Source: Streptomyces sp. MBT65
Lineage (GTDB): Bacteria > Actinomycetota > Actinomycetes > Streptomycetales > Streptomycetaceae
DNA length: 64,000 nt
Direction: 5' to 3'
Assembly: GCF_016612545.1 (NCBI RefSeq)
Contig: NZ_JAENRY010000004.1
Span: forward strand, 1-64,000
The notes beneath the pieces are model-generated. The model ran no database searches and was not told the origin of the DNA. It was given only the letters and a program-made list of their open reading frames with translations. The position numbers and the translations under genes are program-made. Positions 59,087 through 59,348 of the stretch are shown here, one piece after another; position 1 is the stretch's first letter; each line of letters begins with the position of its first letter.

Positions 59087-59106
59087 GGGGCCTTGCCGCA
59101 AGCCCC
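59087..59106. promoter_or_regulatory. Rifamycin-associated element (RAE)
   Basis: Read on the minus strand the site is GGGGCTTGCGGCAAGGCCCC, matching the RAE known upstream of rifamycin-inactivating genes (rph, rgt, arr, rox, helR). For rox it supplies a -35 TTGCGG with CAAAAT 19 bp downstream as -10. On the plus strand it supplies TTGCCG (59093-59098) followed after 17 bp by TATACC (59116-59121), so a divergent promoter is possible. Confidence 0.9.
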
Positions 59107-59128
59107 CCGCCGCGCTATACCTTGGGTG

Positions 59129-59155
59129 TGGCAAGGAGTGGACGACTCCTTGCCA
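59129..59155 (+). terminator. Promoter-proximal hairpin, attenuator-like
   Basis: TGGCAAGGAGT (59129-59139) and ACTCCTTGCCA (59145-59155) form a perfect 11-bp stem with a 5-base loop, followed by TTGCCTTTTT. It begins at or just after the predicted start of the plus-strand transcript from the RAE promoter, and its arms reuse the GGCAAGG/CCTTGCC word of the RAE. Confidence 0.6.
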
Positions 59156-59245
59156 TTGCCTTTTTCCGGGTACGTCTCCGCAGGCTCGGCTCCTGGGGCT
59201 GCCGGTCGGCGAGGGTGTCGTCAACCCCCCTGTGAGGACCTGGTC

Positions 59246-59270
59246 CACCCCCGTACGGACACGGGGGGTG
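59246..59270 (+). promoter_or_regulatory. Second hairpin in desaturase leader
   Basis: CACCCCCGT (59246-59254) pairs with ACGGGGGGTG (59261-59270), one extra G, 79 bases before the desaturase ATG. CAACCCCCC at 59222-59230 could compete for the G-rich arm, giving alternative leader folds. Confidence 0.4.
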
Positions 59271-59348
59271 CCGTCATGGTCGCGAGCGGTCACCGATTCG
59301 TACGTTTGCTCAGGTCAGTCCATTGCCTGAGAGAGCCGGAGACCGGAC

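Follow-up and report, generated by a model that had tools for sequence, protein, structure and literature searches.

The rifamycin-associated element (RAE) upstream of the rifampin monooxygenase gene rox in Streptomyces sp. MBT65 is likely the core of a larger two-sided module, in which two overlapping promoters point apart and exclude each other. The sense promoter would drive rox, the divergent promoter would be the default, and rifamycin would shift the balance between them, whereas the adjacent fatty-acid desaturase gene would be a bystander. This reading was obtained from a stretch of 64,000 nt (hereafter, the window) and from comparison of its RAE with sites in other genomes.

The 19-mer GGGGCTTGCGGCAAGGCCC, which is the RAE core, was found with 0 mismatches on the minus strand at 59088-59106, between rox on the minus strand and the desaturase gene on the plus strand, as the initial annotation had stated. 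The plus strand of the same 19 bp also matched, with 3 mismatches; with up to 3 mismatches allowed, shuffled sequence averaged 0.07 matches. In profile searches, the product of rox (57500-58972, minus strand; start codon by reading) scored 845.9 bits with NF033145 (cut-off 800), so the RAE lies upstream of a rifamycin-resistance gene. The product of the neighboring gene (59349-60413, plus strand) scored 130.9 bits with the fatty-acid desaturase profile PF00487 (cut-off 29.7), and no NCBIfam subtype reached its cut-off. Comparison with relatives places this gene probably outside RAE control. The host genome (11.25 Mb) harbors one further perfect RAE, on another contig (L001, C310:8348-8366), ahead of an rgt-type glycosyltransferase gene (619.9 bits, under the model cut-off of 800) that is followed by a helR-like N-terminus, recognized by eye. 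A catalogued structured RNA was rejected for 58900-59420, where an Rfam search gave no match at E up to 1.

On the minus strand, a sense −35 hexamer, TTGCGG, was read inside the RAE at 59096-59101, with the −10 hexamer CAAAAT 19 nt away at 59071-59076. Just after this −10, the minus-strand region 59043-59068 showed partial conservation across sites of the types rox, helR, rgt, and rph (consensus cggcC.a.gcc.....c....g.aa). On the plus strand, the initial annotation had read TTGCCG and TATACC at a distance of 17 bp. These letters are present (59093-59098, N17, 59116-59121), but TATACC lacks T at position 6, and a consensus promoter scan of 58900-59450 that required A2 and T6 with spacers of 16–18 found no promoter. 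An alternative reading of this strand, TTGCCG-N19-TACCTT, has a sigma70-type −10 with T1, A2, and T6 at 59118-59123, and its −35 overlaps the sense −35 inside the RAE. The start predicted from TACCTT is near 59130, close to the 59128 proposed before. Because the spacing is 19, in all 145 sites described below, and thus outside the sigma70-type 16–18, we term the element promoter-like. A divergent promoter facing the desaturase gene, with TACCTT at N19 as its −10, looks real.

We then compared RAE sites across genomes. In the genus of the window, 336 of 392 scanned genomes had a match at up to two mismatches, a count that is inflated, since a control motif read backwards also matches in many of those genomes. 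The genus g3, to which G464 belongs, gave 91 of 118 genomes at up to two mismatches, and at up to one mismatch the class gave 103 of 296 and the phylum 23 of 296. Sixty further stretches were added to the collection. From part of the matches listed, 171 distinct sites (115 + 56) were taken, which span 14 families (family codes entered by hand). The direction of a site was set by its downstream gene, not by the promoter pattern. In total, 145 sites were assigned to a gene (rox 43, helR 54, rgt 26, rph 22), and they form sets of 108 and 37 without shared context. The model scan covered one representative per gene type: rox and helR (758.9, cut-off 750) were above the cut-off, and the incomplete rph representative (820.7, cut-off 999) and the rgt representative (619.9, cut-off 800) had the right best model but scored too low to reach it. 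One site, L159, was counted twice in the 109-row register tally and in the family tally, and once elsewhere.

The other 26 of the 171 sites were left out of the gene-assigned counts. Five of them (L028, L031, L189, L203, L227) have neither hexamer and look like chance matches, two are decayed, and 19 have both hexamers. These 19 were not counted as evidence, because their direction had been chosen by the promoter pattern itself. Fifteen of them precede an Arr-like ORF (L178 profile-scanned, the rest recognized by eye), and the others are L225 (placed here by its likeness to L212), L030, L121, and L254. L030 keeps both hexamers; besides a remnant of rgt, it has helR sequence up to the end of its stretch. 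The genes that follow encode a DrrA-like ABC transporter ATPase at L254 (about 195 nt downstream) and a RibD_C-domain protein at L121 (about 237 nt downstream); it is possible that these are rifamycin-responsive genes beyond the known set.

Both −10 hexamers were invariant in their key bases. At N19, the hexamer of the gene strand had both A2 and T6 in 145/145 gene-assigned sites, and TAnnnT was found at N19 on the strand facing away from the gene, likewise in 145/145. The −35 was TTGCCG or TTGCGG in 143 of the 145 sites on each strand. Invariance was confined to five of 121 flanking columns: three belong to the divergent hexamer (−17, −13, and −12, its T6, A2, and T1) and two to the sense hexamer (+31 and +35, its A2 and T6). 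Registers other than N19 held some matches in the 109-row tally. Apart from N19, divergent T1, A2, and T6 together occurred three times at N12 and not at all from N13 to N27; A2 and T6 alone occurred in 83/109 rows at N25 on the divergent side and in up to 41/109 on the sense side (N22). At N17 the combination of A2 and T6 was found in 0/109 rows, and TATACC was rejected as the divergent −10.

Against a two-promoter module stand the N19 spacing itself, outside the usual 16–18, and the relatedness of the sites by descent. The median flank identity was 0.62 (4000 random pairs of sites), and both hexamers were kept in 70/70 representatives at less than 75% flank identity. According to a codon-composition rule, the upstream neighbor has the same direction as the resistance gene in 54 of the 108 sites and is divergent in 35, and the rule gave no call for 19. 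The divergent −10 was kept in 42/42 sites with a same-direction neighbor within 400 nt, which indicates that the divergent promoter is independent of the neighboring gene. At L251, which has an RAE of 19/19 but only a short start of helR (best tblastn match, 36 residues), the hexamers are TACGTC and CGGAAC. At L193, which has one RAE mismatch and a truncated arr (62/142 residues matched), they are TGTCAT and CGGAAT. The key bases of both −10s are lost at each. Decay went the way that the module would predict and so points in the same direction, though there are only two such sites.

The plus strand of the window carries a terminator-like hairpin, GGCAAGGAGT-ggacg-ACTCCTTGCC (59130-59154), at the predicted divergent start. 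Its stem is GC-rich, and the T run (59161-59165) begins about 6 nt past the stem, not directly behind it as in an intrinsic terminator. Because of this distance, which is shared by the window group, termination may leak and read-through is possible. With a T-rich tail required, 79 of the 108 sites and 10 of the 37 had a terminator-like hairpin (shuffled, 4–7 and 0–2), and 29/108 and 27/37 had not; in genus g3 it was 3 of 13. The best stem started at the seventh base after the divergent −10 in 57/108 sites. The mean stem score was 22.9, compared with 14.0 in mononucleotide shuffles, and 82/108 sites were above the shuffled 95th percentile. Classified by neighbor, terminator-like hairpins were found in 21/26 sites with a gene within 500 nt that is oriented along the divergent promoter, in 28/43 whose neighbor runs against it, and in 30/39 others.

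Covariation was assessed with nine hand-named pairs, and the result leans on that choice. Across sites, 87.0% of the cells were paired, compared with a shuffle maximum of 84.7% and with 50–69% when one arm was slid. There were 36 compensatory cells (500 shuffles: mean 15, maximum 25); one arm slid by one column still gave 34, and this control weakens the result. Taken alone, neither the helR sites nor the rox sites had compensatory cells above their shuffles, and RNAalifold returned no structure for the hairpin alignment. By these sequence measures the hairpin is well supported in the 108-site set, and the support from covariation is modest.

A rifamycin-responsive transcription factor that covers the whole symmetric site, with the outer A/T pairs as half-sites and no divergent promoter, would suit the palindromic RAE and a dyad symmetry that takes in the outer pairs. 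An unknown factor is also named as one possibility in two reports (PMC10719064, PMC12802891). We consider this explanation quite unlikely. The invariant outer bases are exactly the key bases of a sigma70 −10. Outside the RAE, a full dyad match (1.00) was confined to offsets 22 and 26, the positions of A2 and T6, and at offset 21 the match was 0.00, since position 1 is never the same on the two sides (145/145 sites). A further argument against this explanation is that more sites than in shuffled sequence have a terminator-like hairpin where the divergent transcript is predicted to start.

A third interpretation takes the upstream element not as divergent but as a tandem sense promoter, P1, with CAnnnT at −18 to −13. 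A2 and T6 fit this sense reading as well, and for M. smegmatis helD a sense P1 is reported about 20 bp ahead of the RAE, and its start has been mapped (PMC10719064). This interpretation is very unlikely, however: TTG was found at fitting −35 places (15–20 nt) in at most 2 of 145 sites, the invariant A at −12 would be unexplained, and the exact mirror spacing would be a matter of chance. Moreover, at least four T among the 10 nt after the stem were found in 75/108 sites on the divergent side compared with 23/108 on the other side.

The initial annotation had proposed that the RAE drives the desaturase gene together with rox, and had named conservation of the gene pair, and of TATACC and its spacing, as the test. 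Of 552 desaturase relatives, the best 80 were examined; they come from named genomes, nearly all of Streptomyces. Only six of these 80 (89–93% identical) had rox together with a perfect RAE in the upstream region; in the remaining 74 (70–83%), neither rox on the stretch examined nor an RAE with up to three mismatches within 1.5 kb was found. Conversely, of the 43 rox loci among the RAE sites, one had the pair (flanks of about 1.5 kb). Several flanking genes were common to RAE-bearing and RAE-less desaturase loci, and at the RAE-less L039 a long divergent ORF, helicase-like by eye, stands in the place of rox. In the seven loci with both rox and the desaturase gene, the hexamer read as TATACC was TATACC in three, TATACG in three, and TATAAG in one, whereas GCTATA, which reads TATAGC on the rox strand, was unchanged in 7/7. 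Neither the pair nor the hexamer with its N17 spacing was thus conserved.

Conservation on the desaturase side was found in the proximal leader (59211-59348, plus strand), which holds conserved CATGGTCGC and CGTACGTTT blocks. The last ~130 bp before the gene, with GTACGTT and CATGGTCGC, recurred in 7 RAE-bearing and 54 RAE-less rows. The alignment took those rows that contain the GTACGTT anchor (60/80; the other 20 were left unaligned). Because the leader recurs in RAE-less loci, the desaturase gene probably has its own promoter, for which TGGTCG (59277-59282), N18, TACGTT (59301-59306) on the plus strand is a candidate. The leader also contains an inverted repeat, ACCCCCGT...ACGGGGGGT (59247-59269). 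Further upstream, 58 of the 80 relatives (L033-L112) have a conserved palindromic CTCAAATTTGAC element, which is absent at the six rox loci. In this comparison of leader and CTCAAATTTGAC element, the leader test is loose at four mismatches, and only rows inspected by eye were relied upon.

With 74/80 relatives lacking both rox and RAE, and the leader recurring in 54 of those 74, coupling of the RAE to the desaturase gene is unsupported, and so is the proposal that rifamycin would couple drug inactivation with membrane remodeling. A desaturase-specific promoter in the RAE was rejected, because the divergent −10 is kept whatever the neighbor. Of the earlier claim, a desaturase-facing promoter very probably stands, as a prediction, but not its service to the desaturase gene. 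Co-induction of rox and the desaturase gene from one bidirectional promoter would fit the N19 plus-strand promoter at 7/7 rox/desaturase loci, the possible leakage past the stem, and the missing CTCAAATTTGAC element in the six relatives with rox, but it is the least probable of the explanations considered, given TATACC in only 3/7 loci, a divergent promoter that is independent of the neighbor, a hairpin at its predicted start, and a leader that is common to RAE-less relatives and is kept at L048, L068, and L075 with neither RAE nor CTCAAATTTGAC element. The desaturase gene is probably a bystander with its own leader and promoter, and the promoter facing it is probably a general part of the RAE switch, not a link to membrane remodeling.

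We therefore return to the two-sided module with mutually exclusive promoters. The two sigma70-like promoters would point apart, with their overlapping −35 hexamers as the center of the RAE palindrome, and because these hexamers overlap, only one promoter would be usable at a time. TTGCGG-N19-CAAAAT would drive rox, and TTGCCG-N19-TACCTT would start near 59130 toward the desaturase gene, its RNA being ended by the hairpin and T run after ~35 nt. Since position 1 of the −10 is T in 145/145 sites on the divergent side and C in 143/145 on the sense side, the divergent promoter is probably the default, from which rifamycin would shift the balance to the sense promoter and so induce rox. Overlapping or divergent promoter pairs that admit one polymerase at a time are found at gal and mer, and the mer spacer is long. 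The RAE would resemble them in both respects. It differs from mer in that its dyad covers the −35s, whereas the dyad of the MerR site covers the spacer.

In work on mycobacteria, the RAE is a 19-bp palindrome with two sense promoters (PMC10719064). At M. smegmatis helD, one sense promoter, whose start has been mapped, overlaps the RAE with its −35 (PMC10719064). In M. abscessus, rifampicin induces helD and arr, and helD depends on the RAE (PMC10719064, PMC12802891). The mechanism of the RAE was described in January 2026 as yet to be elucidated (PMC12802891). The core, the kinds of genes, and the sense −35 inside the RAE are the same here (PMC10719064), whereas the module described here is longer: it also includes a divergent promoter-like element that is invariant and, at many sites, a terminator-like hairpin. 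Searches of the open-licence literature did not turn up a divergent RAE promoter, and a description may exist elsewhere.

A two-promoter alarm for rifampicin is described for B. subtilis helD/pps, with convergent promoters on opposite strands, 39 bp between their starts, and the stronger one directed against the resistance gene (PMC12802891). The RAE would share with it the opposite strands and the direction of the stronger promoter. The RAE pair differs in being divergent with overlapping −35s, not convergent and non-overlapping. In B. subtilis, making the two promoters overlap sterically abolished induction, so simple steric competition would not be enough as a sensor (PMC12802891). A tentative extension of the two-sided module is that RNA polymerase itself is the rifamycin sensor, with no dedicated regulator. 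The stronger divergent promoter would fire into a terminated RNA of ~35 nt and thereby keep the sense promoter shut; drug-bound polymerase would disturb this default and open the resistance gene. We regard this extension as conceivable, though on the doubtful side.

The result for the desaturase gene removes the proposed link between resistance and membrane remodeling. If the RAE consists of two mutually exclusive promoters, its mechanism becomes a question of point mutations in the divergent −10. If the polymerase is indeed the sensor, the RAE would represent another two-promoter alarm beside that of Bacillus, with a different architecture.
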